Source: Nitrospirota bacterium (GTDB lineage Bacteria; Nitrospirota; Thermodesulfovibrionia; UBA6902). From it: 64,000 bases of DNA. The notes under the pieces are model-generated. The model made no database searches. It had not been told where the DNA came from and worked only from the letters and a program-made list of their open reading frames with translations. Of the stretch, positions 1-55,768 are shown piece by piece. The stretch is taken from NCBI GenBank assembly GCA_016234115.1, contig JACRHD010000049.1, forward strand, positions 1 through 64,000. The letters are read 5' to 3'. Every line of letters starts with the position of its first letter. The first letter of the stretch is position 1. The position numbers and the translations under genes are program-made.

Positions 1-3000
1 CAGGGCCATACCGCTAAGATCGAGCGTCTTGCTGCCATGGCATTCAATACACGATGCGTTGTCCGTTGACGGAACAGCCCCATCATGACGCTCCAGCCCG
101 TTCAGCGCGCCCGCAGAATGACAGCTTGTGCATGTGCCGTCGTGATGGTTCGTGTTGTTGACAGAGGCATGACATTCCGCGCAGTCGGTAGACGCCTGCA
201 TTGTGTTGAAGTCCGTCAACTCCGAGAGAGCGGATGTGTCATAGCCCAGGAGCTGGTTCGCGTTTACCTTTGTCAGAACGTATCCGCCGTCAGTACAAGG
301 GAACGTCGAGCCGTCCATCGGGTTATAACATGTGGCCCCGAGGTCGAACTTGTTGACATGGGCCGGGTTGCCGGGGTTCTTCGTAACACCCACGATACCC
401 CAGACCCTGTTCATTGTGGACGGGACAGTGCCTGCCGCTCCTGTGACCGGGTTGGTCCAGTTGCTTCCTGCCACTACCGGCGAGAACGTGCTCTGCTGCA
501 GGTTCTTCTTGTAGTGCAGCCTGATCTCGTCGCGGCTGTAGTAGTCGAAGTAGCCGTCCATGGGGTTGGCGTCGCAGCCGTTGGTACCCATCTGTCCGTG
601 ATCGGTCCCGTTCGGGAAACCGAAGAATGAGTAAATCGGGTTGCAGCCGGCTGCCGTAGCGCCTTCCCTTATGGCCATCATCTGCATCATGGCCACGCCG
701 TCTATCGGAAACGCGTTTCCGATATCCGCGGGCATCCCGAACATCGGGAAGAGATTGGTAGCTATGTAGGTCCTGCAAGCCATCTGCTCGGTCTGATCGC
801 ATGTGCCGTTTTCATTGCCGCCCATCTGGGCCGCATCGAACATGCCGCACATCCAGTCGGGATGGTCCGCATTGGCCCATCCGCCGGCGTCGAAGCTCAT
901 GTCGTCGCCGCCGCAGTCGTAATCCGCCATCTGCATCATCGGGTTCTTCAGAAGCTCCTTGCTTCCGTCAAAGAAACCGACTGAAGACGGTTCGGCAGAG
1001 GTCGAATGGCACATTTCGCAGCCTCCCCTTGAGGGCGAGCCTAAGGCCCACTCCTTCGTGGGAATGCCGTGTGACGGGTCAAACATCGTGGGATAAAGGG
1101 AAAGTCTCGGATCTCTCACCGTCCCATGCGAGGCCAGCACGCCGGAGCGCGCTGTTGCGAGCTCGGCAGCCATGGCGTCTATCTTGGCCTTGGACTCGAT
1201 CTTCAACGGGTCGGTAAGCTGAAATCCCTGGAACGGAGGATGATCGTTCGTTCCGTTCAGCCTTATTCCGAATCCGGGATTAGCCGCGGAGACAATCGCT
1301 GCCGCCGAAGTTATGTCCCTTGTCTTTGCGGGCATCCACCCTAATACAAAATTATCAGACGCCCTGATCCCCGAACCTGTCCAGATCGGAAGAAGAGAAG
1401 GGAGCATCGGGGTTATCTTAGTCCCTTCAGGATTAGCGAGCCATGCCCTCAACGGAGGCATTGAACCGGCCCCGCCGTCCATGAAGTTATAGTTAAAGTC
1501 AAAGTGGTTGGCATTGCCGTTGCTGCCGTCAGACTGCCTGTAACCACCTGCTGTCCAGTCCCTGAACCCGAGCCTTCCGGGAGCCGAATAGACAGCCGGG
1601 ATATGGCATGTACGGCAGTCGATCTTTTCGAAATGCGCCGGCGGGAATGCCGCGTGGGCCGTCGCCGGGTCCGGCGCGCTGCCTGCATTCGGATGAGTCT
1701 TGTCGATATGGCAGCCTTCGCATGTAACCGTGCCGTCGAGCTGATCGTTGGCATGCTCTAACATGCTGAAGCCCTGGGCTATCTGATGGTCTATCTTCTG
1801 TATCGGATTTGCCGGGTCCGTCGCCGGATACGTGTATGTCTGACCGTTAGCTGTGTAGGTCCTTGCAGGAAGGGTCCCGGACACTGCGTAATGACAGGTC
1901 GCGCACTTCATGCCTGCTGCATCATGCACATCCACATCCGCCATCTTTCCTGCAATCTGTTTGGGGACTCCCGGGGCTTCCCATATGTACTCGGGATTCG
2001 TCTGCAGGTTTACCCCGCCTGCCCCGGCGTTACATGCTTCGCGAATGCTCGGCATTCCGCAGACGCCGTCGTCGGCTGTAAACTCCATGCCGTCCATCCC
2101 GAGCCACCACATATTGGGTCCGCCGTTCATTGCGCTGAACGCCGCGCAGCCAAGGCATACGCCGAAGCCGAACCTGTCGTTACTGCCGTAGCCGGTCTTC
2201 TGGGACCTTTTTCCCATTCCGGTCTTGCAGCCGAACTCGCCCCATGTTGTATCGTTCTTGCAATCTTTTCCCGCGGCGCAGTTGCCTGATGAGTCGATCT
2301 CATCGAGGTCGACTGCTTCCTCAGGTCCGGTAAACTTAAAGAAGTTGCCGTATCCGGTGATCATACCACCGTACTGCTGGGCCTCACCGGGAAGACCGAT
2401 GTTGTCGGCGTCATTCCTGGCGTGGCACTGGGCGCAGTTACCGCTGTTAGGGACCGCCGAGATGCTGGAACCGGGGATAGTCGTCGGGGTGTCCTCAGCG
2501 AGGGTCCCGGTCGCTTTGTCTATCTTTACTCCGATACCTGCTGATGCCGCAAGATCGAACCAGCCTTCCGATATCGCGATATTCCTGTTGAATGAATCAT
2601 ATATCGTACCAGCGGTATACTGGAATCGTGGATCTGATGTCGAGCAGTCACGGTTATCTGCGGGGCCGATCTGCTTTGCCGGGCCGCAGTCCTCGGACCT
2701 GTACCATGCCGCGCCGGTCTTCAGTTGGTTCGCGTGGCACATCATGCAGTCGACTTCGGCATTGTTGGCGCCGAAAAGCTGAGTGCCCTGAACGTCGGTA
2801 TTCGCGGATATGTCTACTATCCTGCCTAACACGAGCGAGCCTTCCGCGTAAGTAGCAGGCGTCCCGTCCAGGCCGATCAGGGTCTCGCCGCCCGCGGGCG
2901 CTATGTGTGCAGGCATCCAGGTGTACCTGTCGCCTTCATTCGTTGCGCCTGCCTGCCCGTAGGGAAGCATGTCCCTGTCGTACTCCATCTGGCCGCCCCC

Positions 3001-3531
3001 GACATGACATACGCCGCACGCCTTGGCCCATGCCGCCGGAGAAGCCTCTATTTCCCTTGTGGCCGCTGAAGTGTCTGTGTCTGAGCCGTCCAATACAATG
3101 TCTTTTGCCGCCAACTGGCGGTTGGAAGGCGGTCAATACCTTCCGAACATGCCGGGCGAGCTTGTGAAGCCAGGGGCGCCCCAGACTGTTCTCAAGGCTG
3201 CGGTCCACTCCTCGCCTCTTCCCTGATTGCTGTGTTTTCCCACAGACACGCCGTGGGAGAAAGTGGTTACATCATAATTCTGAAATGCCACTTTTCCTGA
3301 ACTGTTTGCATATCCCTGTACCTTTGAAGCAGTTACAGGGTCCGAACCGTAGTTATGACAGCCTGCTGTTGCGCAGGTCTGCTTCGGACTATAAGGCGTG
3401 TTCCCTGAAACGGGATTGCCGGATGAGTCCCTGACTGTTACATCCGTATGGGACATCGCGATGGTGTAACTGACGAGCACCAGTATGATGCACAACACCA
3501 CTGTCAATGGCCCTGATTTCGAGCCTCTCAT
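1..3531 (-). CDS. giant multiheme c-type cytochrome, N-terminal part, with in-frame TGA
   Basis: The reading frame starts at an ATG (3531), has a 25-residue hydrophobic export signal, and stays open to the left edge apart from one TGA at 3133-3135. I translated the rest of the frame by eye and found no other stop, so at least 1177 residues belong to one product. Visible heme motifs are an N-terminal CX4CH (CATAGCH) and ten canonical CXXCH: CGVCH, CMMCH, CAQCH, CATCH, CEGCH, CRTCH, CEMCH, CAECH, CTSCH and CIECH. Between them lie long heme-free stretches rich in Gly, Asn and Met, with extra Cys not in CXXCH (for example CLGC without His). This spacing fits large secreted or outer-surface cytochromes of metal reducers and syntrophs; the exact family was not recognised. 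It is transcribed divergently from the STT3 gene, behind a sigma-54-type promoter. If the TGA is a true stop, only a 132-residue fragment would be made. Confidence 0.85.
3133..3135 (-). other. in-frame TGA, candidate selenocysteine codon
   Basis: The codon after ...SPGMFGRY is TGA, and the same frame continues with PPSNRQLAAKDIVLDG and then ten CXXCH motifs. Two bases after the TGA the transcript can fold into a GC-rich hairpin: CCAAC pairs with GTTGG around a 5-base loop, and an outer GCC/GGC closes it. A competing CCGCC-AGTT-GGCGG fold uses the same bases. Bacterial SECIS elements are hairpins just downstream of UGA, so recoding is possible. A TGG-to-TGA error or mutation (Trp) is the main alternative. 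No selA, selB, selC or selD is visible in this window. Confidence 0.45.
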
Positions 3532-3781: not shown

Positions 3782-3820
3782 TGAAACACCACTGTGTTTC
3801 AATGATGTTTCATTGAAACA
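3782..3820. promoter_or_regulatory. two overlapping dyads, candidate enhancer-binding sites
   Basis: TGAAACAC-CACT-GTGTTTCA (3782-3801) is an 8-bp perfect dyad. It overlaps a second, 11-bp perfect dyad, TGTTTCAATGA / TCATTGAAACA (3795-3805 and 3810-3820). The heptamer TGAAACA or its complement occurs four times in 39 bases. The block lies about 100-140 bases upstream of the start predicted from the sigma-54 promoter at 3692-3707, which is where activator sites usually sit. It could instead act in the leader of the STT3 gene. Confidence 0.55.
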
Positions 3821-3938
3821 ACGACTGAACGCTTCTGAACCATATATCGGCCTCCGTAACTTGCCGCGTGTCACCTGCAAGTTATTATTTCTGCGCTGGG
3901 ACAGAGATAAAAAAAATTTTTTTCGGTTAAAATACGGC

Positions 3939-6191
3939 ATGTCTTTTCCCGGATCAAAAGACCGATACCACTGGACAATATTTGTCCTTCTCGCCGCGGC
4001 ATTGGGCACGGCGCTCTTCATCAGGACCGCTTCCTTCAGGAACTTCGTCAATCCCGAGGGCGGCTTCTTCTTCTACAGCATAGACGCCTACGACCATCTC
4101 CGGCGCGTGACGCTCGGAGTTCATTCCTTCCCTTCGATACCCGCCTTTGACTATTACGTCGGGTATCCGGAAGGGACCGGACAAATATGGTCTCCGCTGT
4201 TCGATTATGTGCTTTCGGCGGCAGCTCTCATTGCTGGAGGAGGAAGGGTCGCTACGGAGACCGTGTGTTTTTTTTCCAATCCCTTTTTCGCGGGCCTGAC
4301 GGTCCTGCTGATTTTCATTGCAGCCGCAAAATTGTTTTCCAGCCCGGTTGCGGGGATCGCCGCCGCCTTCCTGCTGGCGTTGAGTCCCGGCCATATCTCT
4401 TATTCCATCCCGATGAACTTCGATCACCATGTCCTCGAGTCCATAGCCGTGCTCTTTCTTTTGTGTCTCCCTTTTCTCGAAAGAGACGACCGGCTTTCTT
4501 TGAAAGGAAAGCTTGCCGCGGCATTCCTCATCGTGCTTGCGCTTTTCATGTGGAGGGGAAGCACCGTCTACTGGGGCGCGGCCTTTTTAGCGGTCTTCAT
4601 ACGCTCCTTCATTTCGGACCGGAAGGGCCTTTCGCTTGATTATGCCGTCAGTTTTTTACTTGCCTCTGTTGTTGTCGCGATAGTCTGCGTGATAAATCCC
4701 TGGGGCAGCGCGTCATCAGTGTCCTTCGGGATCATCTCGTGGTTCCATGTAATAATGCTTGCCTCTCTTGCCGCGGTCCTGATGCTCTTTTCCGTGTGCA
4801 GGACAAAAAAGGCTTTCTTTTACTCGCTTGCCGGCGTCACAGCGGCGGGGACAATGTCCCTTGCCCTGCCGCAGTTGAGAGATTTCCTCTCCGGGATACT
4901 CAGCGGGATATCATTCCTTCGCGGCGGCGGCGACCCGTGGCTTGAATCCAACAGCGAGCTGCACGGCGTCTTCTCGGGATACAATTTTCTCTACAGCGCA
5001 AGCTATCTGACGGCAGCCTGGTTCGCCGCGCCTTTCGGCGCCGCGCTTGCACTGATCAAGTGGAAGAAGGACGGGATGAACAACAAATACCTTATTACAT
5101 TCGTCGCGTGGTCCCCGCTCCTCCTTTTAGGGTTGATCAGGCGATATACCCCTATTGCAGGCGTCATGTCGTCCCTGGCCGGGGCATATCTCATCGCCGG
5201 CGCGTGGCAATATATGAGAAGTCCGTGGAAAAGGGCCGTCATTGCCGTGGGCGCCGCACTTCTGCTCCTGCCTTCCTTCCAGCACTACAAAGTCACGGTA
5301 AACGGCCACCTCCCCGCTTATCTCAAGGAGGGGCTCTACGGCAGGGACGGGGCCCTCGAATGGATAAAAAACAATACCCCCAAAACTTCCTATCACCTTG
5401 AACCGACAGAACAACCCGAATACGGGATCATGGCAGACTGGGACCTCGGCGCCAAGCTCTACCACCTCGCGGAGCGTCCCGCCGTGGCGACTGCTTTCGG
5501 GTGGGAAACGCACGGGTTCTATGAGTTAGCGGGATTCATGGCGACTACCCGGCCGGAAACGGCATTTACGATCGTCAGGGACAACCGTGTACGGTATGTA
5601 CTTCTAAGCGCATTCAGATCTCTTGAGACCGATCACGCGATAGCACGCGACGGCGAGGCAAAGGGCAAGCTTCCCCTTGGCACCGTCGGCAAGTTCAATC
5701 AGGGGCTTTCCATTTACAACAGGCTGCTGTACAATGACGGGTCAGGACGCAACACCGCGGACTCCTTCATTCCCGCCCTCGGAAATTATCGTCTCCTGTT
5801 CGAAAGCGCCTTCTTAGCCGGGATGAGGGAGTCGGGCGCCCCTGTCAGCTATTTCAAGGTCTTCGAGGCTGTGCCCGGCGCCCGTATAAGGGGAAAAGGA
5901 AAACCGGGCGTTAATGTATCGATAATCATCCGTCTGCTGTCGTCACAGAAGCGCCTTTTGTCATACCGGGACGTGGTCGCGACGGACGAACACGGCAATT
6001 TCAGTTTCACGGTCCCCTACTCGACAGAGGGGAAACAGGGTGATACTCAGCCGATGGATGCGTATCTGCTGACGGGCGCCGGCATGGAGGAAACAAAAGT
6101 TGCCGTATCCGAAAACGACATTATCACGGGAGGGACCGTTTCAGTGCGTCCGGTCTTATATTCAGGGACCGGCAGTGGAATTTTCCGGTAA
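3939..6191 (+). CDS. STT3/AglB/PglB-type oligosaccharyltransferase
   Basis: This is a 750-residue membrane protein with an N-terminal signal anchor, roughly a dozen hydrophobic segments in the first 460 residues, and a soluble C-terminal domain. Residues 47-56 (SIDAYDHLRR) match the acidic first-loop motif of STT3 catalytic subunits. Around residues 495-515 GIMADWDLGAKL aligns with the WWDYG region, although the second Trp-Asp-Tyr is altered to DWDLG. The family moves a lipid-linked glycan to Asn of exported proteins at the membrane. The ATG at 3939 places the signal anchor correctly; an in-frame TTG at 3813 would add 42 residues but falls inside the dyad block. It lies between the divergent giant cytochrome and a cytochrome cluster, so exported cytochromes are plausible acceptors, which is inference. 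Confidence 0.8.
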   Translation: MSFPGSKDRYHWTIFVLLAAALGTALFIRTASFRNFVNPEGGFFFYSIDAYDHLRRVTLGVHSFPSIPAFDYYVGYPEGTGQIWSPLFDYVLSAAALIAGGGRVATETVCFFSNPFFAGLTVLLIFIAAAKLFSSPVAGIAAAFLLALSPGHISYSIPMNFDHHVLESIAVLFLLCLPFLERDDRLSLKGKLAAAFLIVLALFMWRGSTVYWGAAFLAVFIRSFISDRKGLSLDYAVSFLLASVVVAIVCVINPWGSASSVSFGIISWFHVIMLASLAAVLMLFSVCRTKKAFFYSLAGVTAAGTMSLALPQLRDFLSGILSGISFLRGGGDPWLESNSELHGVFSGYNFLYSASYLTAAWFAAPFGAALALIKWKKDGMNNKYLITFVAWSPLLLLGLIRRYTPIAGVMSSLAGAYLIAGAWQYMRSPWKRAVIAVGAALLLLPSFQHYKVTVNGHLPAYLKEGLYGRDGALEWIKNNTPKTSYHLEPTEQPEYGIMADWDLGAKLYHLAERPAVATAFGWETHGFYELAGFMATTRPETAFTIVRDNRVRYVLLSAFRSLETDHAIARDGEAKGKLPLGTVGKFNQGLSIYNRLLYNDGSGRNTADSFIPALGNYRLLFESAFLAGMRESGAPVSYFKVFEAVPGARIRGKGKPGVNVSIIIRLLSSQKRLLSYRDVVATDEHGNFSFTVPYSTEGKQGDTQPMDAYLLTGAGMEETKVAVSENDIITGGTVSVRPVLYSGTGSGIFR

Positions 6192-6259: not shown

Positions 6260-7708
6260 ATGCGAATGGGCTTTTTTTATTTATTCATTCTCATGTTCCC
6301 CGCAGCGGCATGCATTGCCGCCTTTCTTTCCGGACCGGCCTACGGCGAGGGTTGCGTAACAGACGCCTGTCACTCGACTCTCTTGAAAACTGCAAACATT
6401 CATCCCGTCACAGAGTCTTGCGATAATTGCCATCAGGCCGGCGCGACCGCCCATCCGCAAAAAAATAAAAAGACCTTCACGCTCACGCAGGGGGTCCCTG
6501 ATCTCTGCTATATGTGCCACTCGCCGTTTGGAAAAAAACAGGTCGTTCACCCTCCCATCGCGGGCGGGATGTGCACCGGGTGCCATGACCCCCACGGCTC
6601 GGAGGAGCCGAAACTGCTCATGCTGCCGATATATGAGATATGCTTAACGTGCCATCCGGACAAGACATCACAGTCGGTCGTTCACGGCCCAACGGCCACA
6701 GGTGAATGCACCGCGTGCCACGACCCTCATGAATCGGACAACAGGGCGCTGACGAAGAAAGACGGCGCTGAACTATGCACGACCTGCCACTCCGACATAC
6801 AGGAAGAACTGAAAAGAAATGTGGTCCACCCCGCCATTTACGGAGGCTGTACCTCATGTCATAACCCGCACAGCTCTCCCTACAGAAAGATGCTCTCCGC
6901 CGAGGGTGAAAAACTCTGTTTCCTGTGCCATCCCAAGATAAGTGAAAAAACGGAGAAGGCCAAGTCGGTCCATCCCCCCATAAAGACGGAGAAGGCGTGC
7001 GCGTCCTGCCATTTCCCCCATGCCGGCGACTCTGAAAAACTCCTGCCCAAGGCAGGGAAAGAACTGTGCCTCGACTGTCATAAGGGGTTTATCAAAAAGA
7101 ACCAGACGGTGCTGCACGGGCCCATCAGGGACGGTAAGTGCACGCCCTGTCATGACCCGCACGGTTCAGCGAACATCAAGCTGCTCGTCAAGGAGTTTCC
7201 CGCGGACATTTATCCCGCGTACAAGGAGGACGAGTATGAACTGTGCTTCAGTTGCCATAACAGGGAACTGCTGAAATATCCCGATACTTCCTTCTCGACC
7301 GGCTTCAGGGACGGCGAGCGAAACCTGCACTACCTGCACGTAAACCGGACAAAAAGCAGGAACTGCAAATTGTGCCACATCATCCACGCCGGCGACCTTC
7401 CGAAGCTGATCGCGGGCAGGGCCCCGTTCGGCAACTGGAATATTCCCCTGAACTTTGAGAAGTGGGATACAGGAGGGAGCTGCCTGCCGGGCTGTCATAA
7501 AAAAGTCGTCTACGACCGGGTGACCCCGGGCAAGGCGCCTGAAACGGAAAAATCCAAAGAGGACAAGAAAAATATAAGCCCGGGAAAAGGCCCCGGAACG
7601 CCAAGGACCGGAGAGGGCAAGGGTGAGCGAGTCGCCCTTGTCGGGCCGGAGCTCACGGGGCCGGAGAGGCCGGCGCCTAAAAAAGTCAGGGAACAGGTGC
7701 TGCCATGA
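6260..7708 (+). CDS. periplasmic multiheme cytochrome, doubled-CXXCH type (13 canonical sites)
   Basis: The product is 482 residues with a cleavable signal ending near PAYGEG. It carries thirteen CXXCH motifs (CDNCH, CYMCH, CTGCH, CLTCH, CTACH, CTTCH, CTSCH, CFLCH, CASCH, CLDCH, CTPCH, CFSCH, CKLCH). It is opened by a CX4CH (CVTDACH) right after the signal and closed by a CX3CH (CLPGCH). Repeating units of about 45 residues, each with CxxCHDPH or CxxCHxPH, are typical of doubled-CXXCH cytochromes. The last 75 residues are heme-free and rich in Lys, Pro and Gly. An upstream TTG (6230) is possible, but the ATG at 6260 gives a normal signal peptide. The stop overlaps the next start (ATGA), so translation is probably coupled to the HAMP protein. 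Confidence 0.9.
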   Translation: MRMGFFYLFILMFPAAACIAAFLSGPAYGEGCVTDACHSTLLKTANIHPVTESCDNCHQAGATAHPQKNKKTFTLTQGVPDLCYMCHSPFGKKQVVHPPIAGGMCTGCHDPHGSEEPKLLMLPIYEICLTCHPDKTSQSVVHGPTATGECTACHDPHESDNRALTKKDGAELCTTCHSDIQEELKRNVVHPAIYGGCTSCHNPHSSPYRKMLSAEGEKLCFLCHPKISEKTEKAKSVHPPIKTEKACASCHFPHAGDSEKLLPKAGKELCLDCHKGFIKKNQTVLHGPIRDGKCTPCHDPHGSANIKLLVKEFPADIYPAYKEDEYELCFSCHNRELLKYPDTSFSTGFRDGERNLHYLHVNRTKSRNCKLCHIIHAGDLPKLIAGRAPFGNWNIPLNFEKWDTGGSCLPGCHKKVVYDRVTPGKAPETEKSKEDKKNISPGKGPGTPRTGEGKGERVALVGPELTGPERPAPKKVREQVLP

Positions 7709-8283
7709 ACAAAGAGACAGACGCGCTGGAAACCGTCGATAAATCATACTACAACAGGTTCGCTTTAAAGTGCACTTCCATTATAATCGCCGGCGCAGTC
7801 CTGGCTGGAATATTTCTCTATTTCTCGCTGCTCAGAGAGCCCGGTTCATCATACGCCGAGAATTACGGCATTATTGCCGCGCTGAGAGGAGATCTCTTAA
7901 ACAAGTCCGCGTACCTTTACATCGCCGCCCTGTTTTTCATTATCATAGGAATTACAATTATCTCTCTGCTGTACTCTCACAAAGTCGCAGGCCCCCTGTA
8001 CAGGCTCGACGTCTACGCGGGAAAGGTCTCCTCAGGCGACCTCACGGAAACAGTGAAACTGCGGGAGAAGGACGCTATATATCCCCTGGCTGATGATCTC
8101 AACGGCCTTGTTTCGATGTGCAGTGAAGTAATCGACTCTCTGGAGACGGAAGCGAAGGAGGTCAGCGGGATTTCCTCGGCGGCGGCGGCCCGGCCGGACG
8201 AAGCGGGCGAGCGGGAAACAGTCGAAAAGATATCCAGGAGAGTCTACAATATGAACAGGATACTCTCCAGGATCAAATTGTGA
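7705..8283 (+). CDS. HAMP-only two-helix membrane protein 1
   Basis: The product is 192 residues: a short cytoplasmic head, a membrane helix at about 23-43, a short periplasmic loop, a second helix at about 70-89 (AALFFIIIGITIISLLY), then a HAMP linker (KVAGPLYRLDVYAGKVSSGD). About 50 helical residues follow. No kinase, cyclase, GGDEF or methyl-accepting domain follows. Such a protein could relay a periplasmic or quinone-side signal to a partner, or act as a structural membrane subunit of the cytochrome complex; neither is demonstrated. The start overlaps the upstream cytochrome stop by four bases, and a second protein of the same architecture lies two genes downstream. Confidence 0.8.
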   Translation: MNKETDALETVDKSYYNRFALKCTSIIIAGAVLAGIFLYFSLLREPGSSYAENYGIIAALRGDLLNKSAYLYIAALFFIIIGITIISLLYSHKVAGPLYRLDVYAGKVSSGDLTETVKLREKDAIYPLADDLNGLVSMCSEVIDSLETEAKEVSGISSAAAARPDEAGERETVEKISRRVYNMNRILSRIKL

Positions 8284-8334
8284 GCGCCGGGGACCCTTCC
8301 GGTAATACGCCGGAAAGGTTACGTAACATAAAAC

Positions 8335-9162
8335 ATGAAGCGAAAAGCAGCCCTTATCCTTTTAGCAGTTATAAACCTGATTCTGATAGTGGTCTACTGT
8401 ATGGAAAGAGAACCACATAATTTTTCACAGACAGAGTGCCCTATGTGTCACGTAGCGGACGCCTCGGGTAATGTCGTTTCATTTACACTGAAGGGGCCTG
8501 TAACGACCCTTTGCGAAAAATGTCACGAAAAAATCCTTTCCGAAGGATACTTGCACCCCGTGAATGTCGTCCCCAGGAATGTCACGGTCCCGGAAGGGTT
8601 CCCCCTGTCGCGTATCGGGGAGATAACCTGTACGACGTGCCATGACATACATTCACCCTATTTCACTCCCTACGGGGCGCCTACCCACTTCCTGCGGAGA
8701 TATGAGGAAGGGAACAGGTTCTGCGAGGCCTGTCATAAGGGTTCTCCTGTAGGCACGGGACATACGGATACGATGAGAGAGGCCCATTTTCAGTCAAAAT
8801 ACGTCGAGACAAGCGCTTCGCAGGTGATAGACTCCATCTCTCTGCAGTGCGTGTCCTGCCACGACGGCTCGTTCGCCACTTCGTCTTCAATACGGGCCGG
8901 CTCGTGGGGCCACAAGGGAGAACTTATGACGCACGACTCAGGGACCCATCCGATAGGAGTAGATTACGAGGGCGCGCGGCTCAGGAAAGGGCGCAAGGCG
9001 TTTCTGCACCCTATGGACGCCGTGGACCCGAGGATACGGTTCTTCGACGGGAAGGTCGGCTGCGGTTCCTGTCACGACCCTTATTCGAACATCGAAAAAC
9101 GATTAGTCATGAGCGACAGGGGAAGCAAGCTCTGTTTCGCCTGCCACATGTTAGGAAAGTAA
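8335..9162 (+). CDS. heptaheme cytochrome c, membrane-anchored or periplasmic
   Basis: The product is 275 residues with an N-terminal hydrophobic segment (residues 4-22) that may remain as an anchor because no clear cleavage site follows. It has seven CXXCH motifs: CPMCH, CEKCH, CTTCH, CEACH, CVSCH, CGSCH and CFACH. The segment GTHPIGVDY between hemes five and six is characteristic of doubled-CXXCH cytochromes. It is flanked by the two HAMP-only genes, 4 bases before the second, which indicates one operon. Electron transfer in the periplasm is the secure role; the partner is unknown. Confidence 0.88.
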   Translation: MKRKAALILLAVINLILIVVYCMEREPHNFSQTECPMCHVADASGNVVSFTLKGPVTTLCEKCHEKILSEGYLHPVNVVPRNVTVPEGFPLSRIGEITCTTCHDIHSPYFTPYGAPTHFLRRYEEGNRFCEACHKGSPVGTGHTDTMREAHFQSKYVETSASQVIDSISLQCVSCHDGSFATSSSIRAGSWGHKGELMTHDSGTHPIGVDYEGARLRKGRKAFLHPMDAVDPRIRFFDGKVGCGSCHDPYSNIEKRLVMSDRGSKLCFACHMLGK

Positions 9163-9166
9163 ATAT

Positions 9167-9745
9167 ATGACACGTAATTACAGGAGAAGGAATTATTTCA
9201 TCAAAAAGGGCTTCCAGTCCAGGTTCATCCTGAGGTTTATATTGGTCTCCTCACTCTGGAGCGTCCTTTCCATCGTAATGTTCAATTTTCTCGCTTATAG
9301 AGAACTCGATAATATCCTTTTTTCCATGAGGCTCCCCTCGGGGAACATAGGCGATCTCCTTTTTAAGGAGGCCCTCTACGCCAACGTCGCCGCGCTGGCG
9401 CTGATTATACTCACATTCCTGCTGACGGCAAGGGGGATCCATAATAAGATGACGAGGTCGCTCTTCAGGATCAGGGTCGATATACAGAGACTCGTAAGGG
9501 GCGACCTCGGTTCCAGGGTAATGCTGGGCCAGGAAGACGAGTTCAGGGATTTCGCGGAGACCCTCAACGGTATGGCCGGAGAGCTGCAGCGGAGGTTTGC
9601 GGACATTCAGGGCCATCTCGATCAGATAACATGGGCCGCCGCGGAGCTGAAGGTCTCCACCGAAGGGGACAACCGGAGGCTTTATGAAGAGATCCGCAGG
9701 CACGCCGCTGCGATGGAAGAAAAGATCAGGGAATTCAGGAAGTGA
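9167..9745 (+). CDS. HAMP-only two-helix membrane protein 2
   Basis: The product is 192 residues, the same length as the HAMP protein at 7705 and with the same plan. It has a basic N-terminus, a helix at about 22-44, a short periplasmic loop (RELDNILFSMRLPSGN), a second helix at about 70-87 and a HAMP segment at about 88-140. A helical tail ends in EEKIREFRK. The two proteins differ strongly in sequence, so this is an old duplication or convergent architecture. No output domain is present. It sits between a heptaheme and a tetraheme cytochrome with almost no spacing, which argues that cytochrome and HAMP protein act as a pair. Confidence 0.8.
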   Translation: MTRNYRRRNYFIKKGFQSRFILRFILVSSLWSVLSIVMFNFLAYRELDNILFSMRLPSGNIGDLLFKEALYANVAALALIILTFLLTARGIHNKMTRSLFRIRVDIQRLVRGDLGSRVMLGQEDEFRDFAETLNGMAGELQRRFADIQGHLDQITWAAAELKVSTEGDNRRLYEEIRRHAAAMEEKIREFRK

Positions 9746-9760
9746 AGTTTTGATATAACA

Positions 9761-10168
9761 ATGCCGGCAATATTTACAGCTCTCACAATCTTATTTGCCC
9801 TGCTCCCTCTTTACGGCGCGTATGCCGTCCACGACGAGACCGGAACGGTCCGGTGCCTCGACTGTCATACATGGCTCCCTCTTGAAGGCGGCAGTACGGT
9901 CCTGAACGACGGAGGCGACAACATATGCGCCGGCTGTCACAAGGATTCCCACGTAACTTCCGGGGGCTTTTCTCATGTCACACACGCGGTCCCTTCCATG
10001 GACGTCCCCCCTGATATGCCCCTCGACCGGACAGGCGGCATTACCTGTTTTACCTGTCACACCTATCACAGCGGGTACAGGAATTCAAAAGGGGAAAAGA
10101 ACTTTTTTCTCAGGAGGTCCCAGGGAAAGACGTTCTGCTACAGTTGTCATAAAAAACGATTGTTTTGA
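9761..10168 (+). CDS. small tetraheme cytochrome c
   Basis: The product is 135 residues with a signal peptide ending near YGAYA and four CXXCH motifs (CLDCH, CAGCH, CFTCH, CYSCH). The order of motifs and the linker VPPDMPLDRTGGITCFTCH resemble the second to fourth hemes of the protein at 8335, so the two are probably related paralogues. Size and composition suit a soluble periplasmic electron shuttle. It ends just before the TPR lipoprotein gene. Confidence 0.87.
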   Translation: MPAIFTALTILFALLPLYGAYAVHDETGTVRCLDCHTWLPLEGGSTVLNDGGDNICAGCHKDSHVTSGGFSHVTHAVPSMDVPPDMPLDRTGGITCFTCHTYHSGYRNSKGEKNFFLRRSQGKTFCYSCHKKRLF

Positions 10169-53199: not shown

Positions 53200-53326
53200 T
53201 ATGCCATGAAGATTTTACTTGTCAAATGACGGCTGAATTGAGTATATTTGTGAATCGGTGATTTGGGGCTCAAAAAACGTTTATTAATTACACCGGCGGA
53301 CAGATCATAACTGAAAGAGACTAAAT

Positions 53327-55768
53327 ATGAAAGATTATCAGAGAAAAACATTGCTCATCCTCCAGGTCGCGGGGTTCATTCTGTTATTAGTGTTTCCATG
53401 CCGCGTATCTGCGTTGAATGCCTCCGGAGACGGAAACCTGCTTCATCGCTCACAAGGGGAAATCTGCGAAGGCTGCCACAGGACAAATGCGAATACTCCC
53501 TCTCCGGGAGAGGCGGGGTATGAGCAGAACAACTGGGGCAACGCGATCAAGATGCACAGCTCTGAAATCGCAGGCTCATGCTCCGACGCCGCATATGAAA
53601 CAAAGACGGCCTGCGTGTCCAATGGAGGCGCGTGGACCCCTCGAAAATGGGCGGGCAGCAACGGATGGGGCGTTGCGGGAGGCCGATACGGGGAGTTTGT
53701 CTGTGAAACGTGTCATACGTTTCATGCCACAAAGAATATATACCTTATAAAAGAAAACATTACAGCGCCGGGCGGGACACTTCCGGGCGGCACAGTTGAT
53801 TTCAGATATCTCACGGGTGCCCAGGGGAACGCCCCATACGCAATGGGCGATGACTCCGAGGACCATACATCGTCAACAAGGGTCTGCGAGGTTTGCCACA
53901 CCGCCACGAACTATCACAGGTATGACACAAGCTCCCAGTCGGACAACGGCCATAACAACGCTTCCAATTGCAAGGCCTGCCATTCTCACATGACCGGTTT
54001 CGTTGTCGCGTGCAATACGTGTCATGGGGCATCGGGACCAAGCGGCGCGCCTCTGATATCCGGCGATCTCGTTACCGGCGTGAATGCCACGGGATCACTT
54101 TATGCCGGGAAGCATCAAAGACATGTCGCAGACCTTGGTTTTACATGCGAAACATGTCATACCGGCTATATTATGCCTGATAGCGCCGGGCATGCGATAG
54201 ATATCGGTTTCACTGTTTTTTCAGCCGGCGGCGGCAGTTATGACGGACAGACAACAGTGAATTATGCCGGCAGCGAGGCAAACACTACGGTCACCAACAG
54301 CGGCTCGATGCGGTGCGGCAATATGTACTGCCACAGTAATGGGACCTCAGTTTCAAGCGGGACCATACAGGCCTACACTTCAGACAGTTGGGGATCAGGC
54401 GTTTTGACCTGTGCATCATGCCACGGGACCCCCCCCGGTTATACGAATGCCTCTCCCAAGGCCAACAGCCATCCAAGACACAACTACATGACATGCGAAA
54501 AATGCCATTGGAACACGACCAATACCGGAAACGCCATATCCGATTACTCCAAACACGTCAACAACTCATACGAAATAGGCAACAGCGCGGGGACATTGAC
54601 TTACATTTTCAGCCCGTCCGGGGGCTCGTGCAGCGGCGCTTTCGGCTGTCACGGCAACGCCACATGGGGCACTACCATGCCGGCGCAGGATTATTCAAAT
54701 TGCGTATCATGCCATAAGACGGCCAGGGGGAACAGAAGGCAGATAGTCGACTCAAACGGGGACGGTTCGGGTACGGGCGGAGATTTCAAAAAGACTTCTC
54801 ATCACCACAACCCCGCAAGCGGAACGATCGCCGGCTCCGATTGCGCCGTCTGCCATGATACATCTCAGCACCCGGGCGGAAGCGTAAAGCTGAAAAACGT
54901 TGATACAGGTGAAGTATATATTTATAATCCTTCCGATCCTTCGAGTGTTGAAAACCATTGCCTGAGCTGTCATGACACAGATGGCGCTAACGGCAATTTA
55001 AGCCCCTTCTCAGACGGAAAGACACTCGGCGTCGCGCCATACAAGATGAGCAGGGATATACAAACTAACTGGACAAAGACCTATGGCCACAAGCAGCAGG
55101 GGCTCACCTGCCTTGGAAACGGGAATCCCGGCACGGGCTGCCATTCCAATGGTCATGGTTCCGACTATAAAGGATTGCTTGCAAAAAATTTAACACTGCC
55201 TTTAACGCAGGCAGGGCAAGGGGCGCCTTATAGAACGGATGATGAGGGCGCATACGAACTCTGCTTCAACTGTCATTCCAACTACCCGCGAGTGACAAAG
55301 GAGGCCGTCCTCGGCGTCAAAGCCGGCAGCAATTACGACTGGGACCACTGGTGGGGTGTAATGCCGCCCTATTATACCGCTTCTACCCGGACAAACTTTA
55401 AGGACAGGTATGACGCCTCCGGCAAGCCCTACGATGATCAGGAAGGCTGGAGGGGTCCGGGCGAGTATTACAACCTGCATTTCTGGCACATTCAGGATGG
55501 AGCGGGAAACGGATGGAAATACAGGGACAGTATAAACTCCAATGTGCATTGCCTGACGTGTCATAATGTTCACGGCTCAAATACACAGTGGGGATGGGTC
55601 TATGATGAGATGCAGTATAATCATTATGACGGGCAAAGCGGAGACAAATACGGCAAAATGGGGTTGCAGAACCTGAACCTTCTGAATAGCTATCCCGTAA
55701 GCTGCGCGTATAATTGCCATCCTGCGACCGGCGTTTTGAATAACTGGTTTGAACCTGCCGGTGAATGA
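53327..55768 (+). CDS. giant multiheme c-type cytochrome (CX4CH...CXXCH type)
   Basis: The product is 813 residues with a signal peptide ending near RVSALNA. It has thirteen CXXCH: CEGCH, CETCH, CEVCH, CKACH, CNTCH, CETCH, CASCH, CEKCH, CVSCH, CAVCH, CLSCH, CFNCH and CLTCH. There is one CX4CH (CGNMYCH) followed by CASCHGTPP, the Geobacter-type CxxxxCH...CXXCH domain. Wider Cys-Cys-His sites (CX5CH, CX9CH) and a terminal CX3CH (CAYNCH) may or may not bind heme. Long loops lack hemes, as expected for a secreted or surface-exposed electron carrier. It is monocistronic; a long repeat lies in front and a kinase gene is convergent. Confidence 0.92.
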   Translation: MKDYQRKTLLILQVAGFILLLVFPCRVSALNASGDGNLLHRSQGEICEGCHRTNANTPSPGEAGYEQNNWGNAIKMHSSEIAGSCSDAAYETKTACVSNGGAWTPRKWAGSNGWGVAGGRYGEFVCETCHTFHATKNIYLIKENITAPGGTLPGGTVDFRYLTGAQGNAPYAMGDDSEDHTSSTRVCEVCHTATNYHRYDTSSQSDNGHNNASNCKACHSHMTGFVVACNTCHGASGPSGAPLISGDLVTGVNATGSLYAGKHQRHVADLGFTCETCHTGYIMPDSAGHAIDIGFTVFSAGGGSYDGQTTVNYAGSEANTTVTNSGSMRCGNMYCHSNGTSVSSGTIQAYTSDSWGSGVLTCASCHGTPPGYTNASPKANSHPRHNYMTCEKCHWNTTNTGNAISDYSKHVNNSYEIGNSAGTLTYIFSPSGGSCSGAFGCHGNATWGTTMPAQDYSNCVSCHKTARGNRRQIVDSNGDGSGTGGDFKKTSHHHNPASGTIAGSDCAVCHDTSQHPGGSVKLKNVDTGEVYIYNPSDPSSVENHCLSCHDTDGANGNLSPFSDGKTLGVAPYKMSRDIQTNWTKTYGHKQQGLTCLGNGNPGTGCHSNGHGSDYKGLLAKNLTLPLTQAGQGAPYRTDDEGAYELCFNCHSNYPRVTKEAVLGVKAGSNYDWDHWWGVMPPYYTASTRTNFKDRYDASGKPYDDQEGWRGPGEYYNLHFWHIQDGAGNGWKYRDSINSNVHCLTCHNVHGSNTQWGWVYDEMQYNHYDGQSGDKYGKMGLQNLNLLNSYPVSCAYNCHPATGVLNNWFEPAGE

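Follow-up and report, generated by a model that had tools for sequence, protein, structure and literature searches.

The window, the whole 64,000-nucleotide stretch of Nitrospirota DNA that was analysed, carries an operon on its forward strand in which genes for multiheme c-type cytochromes alternate with genes for small HAMP proteins:

cytA, 6260..7708, + strand: long multiheme c-type cytochrome with an N-terminal hydrophobic stretch, 13 CXXCH motifs plus one CX4CH and one CX3CH (Pfam Paired_CXXCH_1, 4.6e-71)
hampA (HA), 7705..8283, + strand: 192 aa, two transmembrane (TM) helices, HAMP and C-terminal coiled coil, no output domain
cytB, 8335..9162, + strand: heptaheme cytochrome (7 CXXCH) with a single N-terminal TM anchor, the middle gene of the triad described below
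hampB (HB), 9167..9745, + strand: 192 aa, two-TM HAMP protein, paralogue of HA, N-terminal RRxYFIxKxFQxRF, no output domain
cytC, 9761..10168, + strand: 4 CXXCH, corresponding to the first, four-heme half of CytB as a separate protein

By the ORF coordinates, cytA and hampA overlap by 4 bp, and the gaps that follow are 51 bp (hampA-cytB), 4 bp (cytB-hampB) and 15 bp (hampB-cytC). An earlier note on this DNA had described overlapping or nearly contiguous genes for cytochromes with 13, 7 and 4 canonical hemes and for two 192-residue, two-helix HAMP proteins lacking an output domain, and the motif counts, ORFs and spacings all bear this out. Just 5' of the operon lies a gene for an STT3/AglB-like oligosaccharyltransferase (3813-6191, +), which is not upstream in a locus from the same genus (L039) and is therefore probably unrelated to the operon. 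Two other multiheme ORFs are found in the window, at 1-3132 (-), with 10 CXXCH and running past the window edge, and at 53315-55768 (+), with 13 CXXCH.

The window HA and HB each contain two hydrophobic helices. Pfam HAMP matched only HB in the window, at 19.5 bits, under the cut-off of 25, and the HAMP assignment thus leans on family evidence. Across the two families, the Pfam model matched 7 of 20 HA (best 5.6e-9) and 11 of 20 HB sequences (best 1.7e-10), and an HB profile matched the TM2 and HAMP segments of Tsr (4.8e-10) and HtrII (7.6e-7). In the AlphaFold model of HA (mean pLDDT 84), a helix spanning residues 50-109 is followed by a connector (110-125) and a second helix (126-162); a Foldseek search with this model returned nothing significant, the best hit being a chemoreceptor model with an E of 0.45. 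Both families therefore present TM2 followed by AS1, connector and AS2, together with a profile match, the features by which we define a HAMP domain. No output domain was found C-terminal to the HAMP in either family (the proteins are mostly 185-200 aa), nor any extracytoplasmic sensor domain between TM1 and TM2, where the HA model and both alignments place only a short loop. HA and HB are paralogues, and each family has its own conserved positions: the HB N-terminus is basic, with the near-universal motif (K/R)R(R/K)xYFI..xFQ, and the C-terminus of many HA members reads I-K/R-L/I.

Besides its heme-binding motifs, CytB has seven conserved histidines, six present in at least 97% of the sequences and one in 62 of 87, which predicts bis-His hemes in an electron-carrying rather than a catalytic protein. 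In Pfam and NCBIfam, CytB matched only doubled-CXXCH, c7 and c3 type families; it was also considered as a NapC/NrfH-type enzyme, a candidate that was rejected since the NapC/NirT family profile gave no match in either database. A CytB profile matched filament cytochromes, mainly over the C-terminal hemes (9yuq, 1.8e-7; 7tfs, 6.4e-5), and the structure model of CytB itself was poor (pLDDT 62). CytC shares 40% identity with residues 32-136 of CytB. In CytA, the CX4CH (CVTDACH, residue 32) and the CX3CH (CLPGCH, residue 408) are both retained in all eight of the other 13-motif homologues examined, and the protein may accordingly bind up to 15 hemes.

Searches of 61 related genomes, some 85,000 species genomes, 296 genomes from the phylum of the window and 244 from the class of Pelovirga yielded 90 distinct CytB homologues; as the scan of the ~85,000 genomes used a single peptide pattern, the resulting distribution is a lower bound. 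A HAMP-only neighbour was present at 74 of the 90 loci, on both sides of CytB in 69 and on one flank in five, where the other flank was cut at a contig end. Loci that lacked a HAMP gene at first pass were rechecked in six frames, and eight of them proved to have both flanks. Class A lies 5' of CytB and class B 3' without exception at the 74 loci (HA was called at 66, always upstream, and HB at 67, always downstream), and a 4-bp overlap joins HA to CytB at 35 of 61 loci. The narrow length range of HA and HB holds across Nitrospirota and Thermodesulfobacteriota, with one further case in Fibrobacterota. The Thermodesulfobacteriota carriers include Pelovirga, Geopsychrobacter, Desulfobulbaceae and Desulfobacula records, and loci that carry a Myxococcota label derive from records with no title beyond "Deltaproteobacteria". 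In the survey of the phylum, CytB was found in 42 of 296 genomes and 29 of 135 genera. A 465-aa ORF in L120 was inspected as a possible HA-CytB fusion and rejected, since its N-terminal half has no HA match and resembles another reading frame.

The recurrence at 74 of 90 loci places the arrangement beyond chance. The pairing of HAMP proteins with cytochromes, which the earlier note had singled out as unusual and had proposed to pursue by a neighbourhood search, is thus real and conserved; far from being confined to one genome, it extends across phyla, and the genome of the window holds a second HA-CytB-HB triad on contig C59. The alternation seen in the window is a different matter: it is true there, but the conserved core is the triad HA-CytB-HB, and the 13-heme and 4-heme genes are additions specific to a subtype and to certain lineages. 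The remaining 16 CytB loci are free of HAMP genes and include copies in a Nitrospinota and in Planctomycetota records. In a CytB tree, the root of which is not known, these 16 copies are scattered and require nine changes, consistent with repeated loss of the HAMP genes from an ancestral triad. At one of them (L089), the 13-heme, CytB and 4-heme genes are present without the HAMP genes, and the CytB looks truncated.

HA and HB resemble the first half of sensor kinases or chemoreceptors, and with the sub-threshold Pfam scores of the window copies they might be taken for truncated or decaying receptors; the earlier note had raised truncated kinases as a possibility. We regard this as extremely improbable, because length, order and sequence motifs are kept across phyla, and because A and B form two separate families, each tied to its own position.

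We then compared the surroundings of the triads. The window-type context, with the 13-heme gene, the triad and the 4-heme gene, recurs in the same-genus genome (L039) and elsewhere, for example at L083 and L107. In many Nitrospirota and Thermodesulfobacteriota loci, the triad is instead preceded on its 5' side by a Uet-like cluster encoding a 5-heme cytochrome, a barrel-like protein, an NHL protein, an 11-heme cytochrome and an OB-like protein; the barrel-like protein (640-700 aa) has no Pfam match, and the barrel and OB assignments are read from sequence only. Other triads lie amid unrelated genes (e.g. L046 and L047). Another cytochrome with at least three hemes occurred within 6 kb at 21 of 37 triad loci and at 3 of 20 control regions (p=0.004), the control being small and entirely from Nitrospirota and related loci not being independent; the other 16 of the 37 triads had no such neighbour.

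Under the same limits of the control, signalling genes were found within 6 kb at 18 of 37 triad loci and 6 of 20 controls (p=0.26), and a general link with two-component or c-di-GMP genes was dropped, the enrichment not being significant. Individual associations were nevertheless recorded. Genes for an NtrC-type regulator and a kinase, convergently oriented, adjoin many Uet-type loci, and a diguanylate cyclase gene lies 3' of HB in L122 and L125. Divergent histidine kinases next to three triads (L041:9516-10967, L042:4897-6330 and L077:747-2582) carry a CXXCH in the predicted periplasmic part (CFNCHH, CFGCHH), which suggests that they are c-heme sensor kinases. These neighbours would fit a split redox receptor, in which CytB senses, shifts the HAMP domains of HA and HB and signals in trans to a kinase, a diguanylate cyclase or another output. 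HAMP domains relay signals, and among solved structures HB comes closest to chemoreceptors and HtrII; sensory rhodopsin, which acts via the two-TM HAMP transducer HtrII, provides a precedent. The adjacent kinases, however, have their own sensors and HAMPs, and no output partner is consistent between lineages, which, with the non-significant enrichment, makes this reading rather unlikely. A signal running the other way, with a cytoplasmic input moving the HAMP pair and thereby gating electron transfer through CytB, would resemble LapD, in which c-di-GMP is reported to act through HAMP, showing that HAMP domains can signal outward (PMC3032553, PMC4359373). The conserved basic cytoplasmic N-terminus of HB and the C-terminal motif of many HA proteins could bind a partner in such a scheme, but HA and HB have no cytoplasmic receiver domain and no partner gene is consistent, and we consider it very improbable.

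Secretion and folding genes form another set of neighbours. At seven loci (L040-L045 and L061), gspE lies -14 to 74 bp 3' of hampB in operons that also hold gspF and pseudopilin genes, an arrangement that would suit transcription of the triad together with a type II secretion or pilus-like machine, and in Desulfuromonadia-type loci PPIase genes adjoin CytB. HAMP-only proteins are also found outside triads. Six loci (L230-L234 and L240; e.g. L234:5455-7161) carry a cytochrome-free cassette encoding a SurA_N protein, a HAMP-only protein and an exported protein of 180 aa that has an HExxH-like motif; the 180-aa neighbour is present throughout, and the motif and the SurA_N protein where these were read. 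Together, these contexts would fit a scaffold in which the HAMP pair organises the maturation, export or localisation of cytochromes or other envelope proteins. Since most triad loci lack secretion genes, and since the constant partner is CytB, which favours a CytB complex over a general chaperone, we find this explanation doubtful.

Our preferred reading begins with the triad itself, which is very probably a real and apparently undescribed membrane machine that moves electrons or senses electron flow. A membrane complex of the HAMP proteins with the cytochrome is strongly suggested. The reading as a whole is supported by the fixed gene order, with no class swap at 74 loci, the frequent 4-bp overlap of HA and CytB, the paralogy of HA and HB with their distinct conserved positions, the axial histidines of CytB, the enrichment of cytochrome neighbours, the adjacent Uet-like genes and the similarity of the C-terminal hemes of CytB to 9yuq and 7tfs. 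The gene order, predicted topology, heme and histidine counts, HAMP relationship and conservation come directly from the sequences, and from them we infer the formation of the complex, the HA/HB heterodimer, the electron-transfer role, the direction of electron flow and any coupling. The operon would then encode an envelope electron-transfer chain whose invariant core is an inner-membrane complex of HA, CytB and HB. HA most likely pairs with HB, and the pair would surround the one TM helix of CytB with four of its own, which continue as a HAMP coiled coil in the cytoplasm. The seven c-hemes of CytB would face the periplasm, at least six of them with two axial ligands from conserved histidines, and would relay electrons between the inner membrane and partner cytochromes, presumably CytA and CytC in the window and a Uet-like outer-membrane conduit in other lineages. 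We put at about even chances this explanation, in which the HA/HB pair holds at the inner membrane a periplasmic bis-His heptaheme wire that feeds other cytochromes.

Several observations weaken the complex reading, namely the 16 HAMP-free CytBs, the L089 cytochromes without HAMPs, the TM anchor of CytB itself, the 16 of 37 triads without a nearby cytochrome, the poor CytB model and the HAMP-only relatives whose neighbours are a SurA-like chaperone and a protein of HExxH type. These neighbours, being envelope genes other than cytochromes, weaken an explanation purely by electron flow. The earlier note had offered membrane complexes that couple electron flow to conformational signalling or anchor the cytochromes. 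The N-terminal TM helix that CytB itself carries makes pure tethering an incomplete explanation, and coupling is for this reason still a candidate. The HAMP pair would position CytB and probably link the state of CytB with a partner in the cytoplasm or with some larger assembly, the lack of a consistent output partner lowering the signalling version of this link.

We compared the triad with known systems. The Uet (undecaheme electron transfer) porin-cytochrome complex has been described in Tenderiales and Gallionella, and its undecaheme cytochrome, NHL protein, barrel and smaller cytochromes have likenesses clustered with the triad in many loci, whereas the component list in the available part of that paper includes neither HAMP proteins nor a HAMP-flanked heptaheme (PMC10734462). 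The Uet markers (barrel, NHL and 11-heme genes) are absent from the window operon and present beside triads elsewhere. In the sensory rhodopsin II/HtrII system, as in the split-receptor reading of the triad, the input enters through one membrane protein and is relayed by another, a two-TM HAMP protein whose extracellular loop is short; HtrII, however, has a chemotaxis output domain, whereas HA and HB have none, are two paralogues and partner with a cytochrome. The Geobacter chemoreceptors GSU0582 and GSU0935 are methyl-accepting chemotaxis proteins with a periplasmic c-heme input (PMC3460858), but they differ from the triad in having one heme, a PAS-fold domain and an output domain fused in one polypeptide. 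The C-terminal hemes and the HPIG-Y motif of CytB resemble those of OmcE-type filament cytochromes (PDB 7tfs, 9yuq), from which CytB differs in its HAMP partners and its predicted N-terminal TM anchor, the retention of which argues against a secreted filament. With NapC, NrfH and CymA, CytB shares a single N-terminal TM helix, periplasmic c-hemes and possibly a role between the inner membrane and the periplasm, but it lies outside their Pfam family and has seven hemes and two HAMP partners.

Electron transfer from the inner membrane to the periplasm and outer membrane, and its sensing, is poorly understood beyond Shewanella and Geobacter, and the ordered three-gene core in Nitrospirota, Thermodesulfobacteriota and one Fibrobacterota is a clear candidate for an unrecognised inner-membrane component. 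The parts are of known kinds, and the fixed HA-CytB-HB combination is, provisionally, new: in agreement with the earlier note, which knew of no such system, open-access full text, a partial literature, yielded no account in which HAMP-only proteins accompany multiheme cytochromes. With HAMP domains that act without an output domain, the triad makes the function of HAMP alone testable, and as L122 is the named strain Pelovirga terrestris, it may be approachable in culture.

A third class of HAMP-only protein (179-185 aa) lies directly after a 5-heme cytochrome (367-406 aa) at L235-L239 and L241-L248 (e.g. L246:5107-6798), with a spacing of 13-79 bp and one overlap among 12 measured loci of the same family. 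These non-random settings outside triads make output-less HAMPs seem reusable envelope parts in these bacteria, mostly, though not exclusively, with cytochromes. More speculatively, and in our view improbably, such HAMP pairs could be a general envelope device that ties the redox state of a separate multiheme cytochrome, or the electron flux through it, to conformational change across the inner membrane, either to gate the export of electrons or to inform the cytoplasm; the HAMP-only part would be reused with the 5-heme cytochrome and with chaperone- or peptidase-like partners. The cytochrome-free HAMP cassette adjoins PEP-CTERM or polysaccharide-export genes in some genomes. A further two-TM HAMP-only family of 173-175 aa stands alone in the genome of the window (G000:C51, L071:6220-6741) and lies 3' of Rnf-type genes in a relative (L249:6539-7066).
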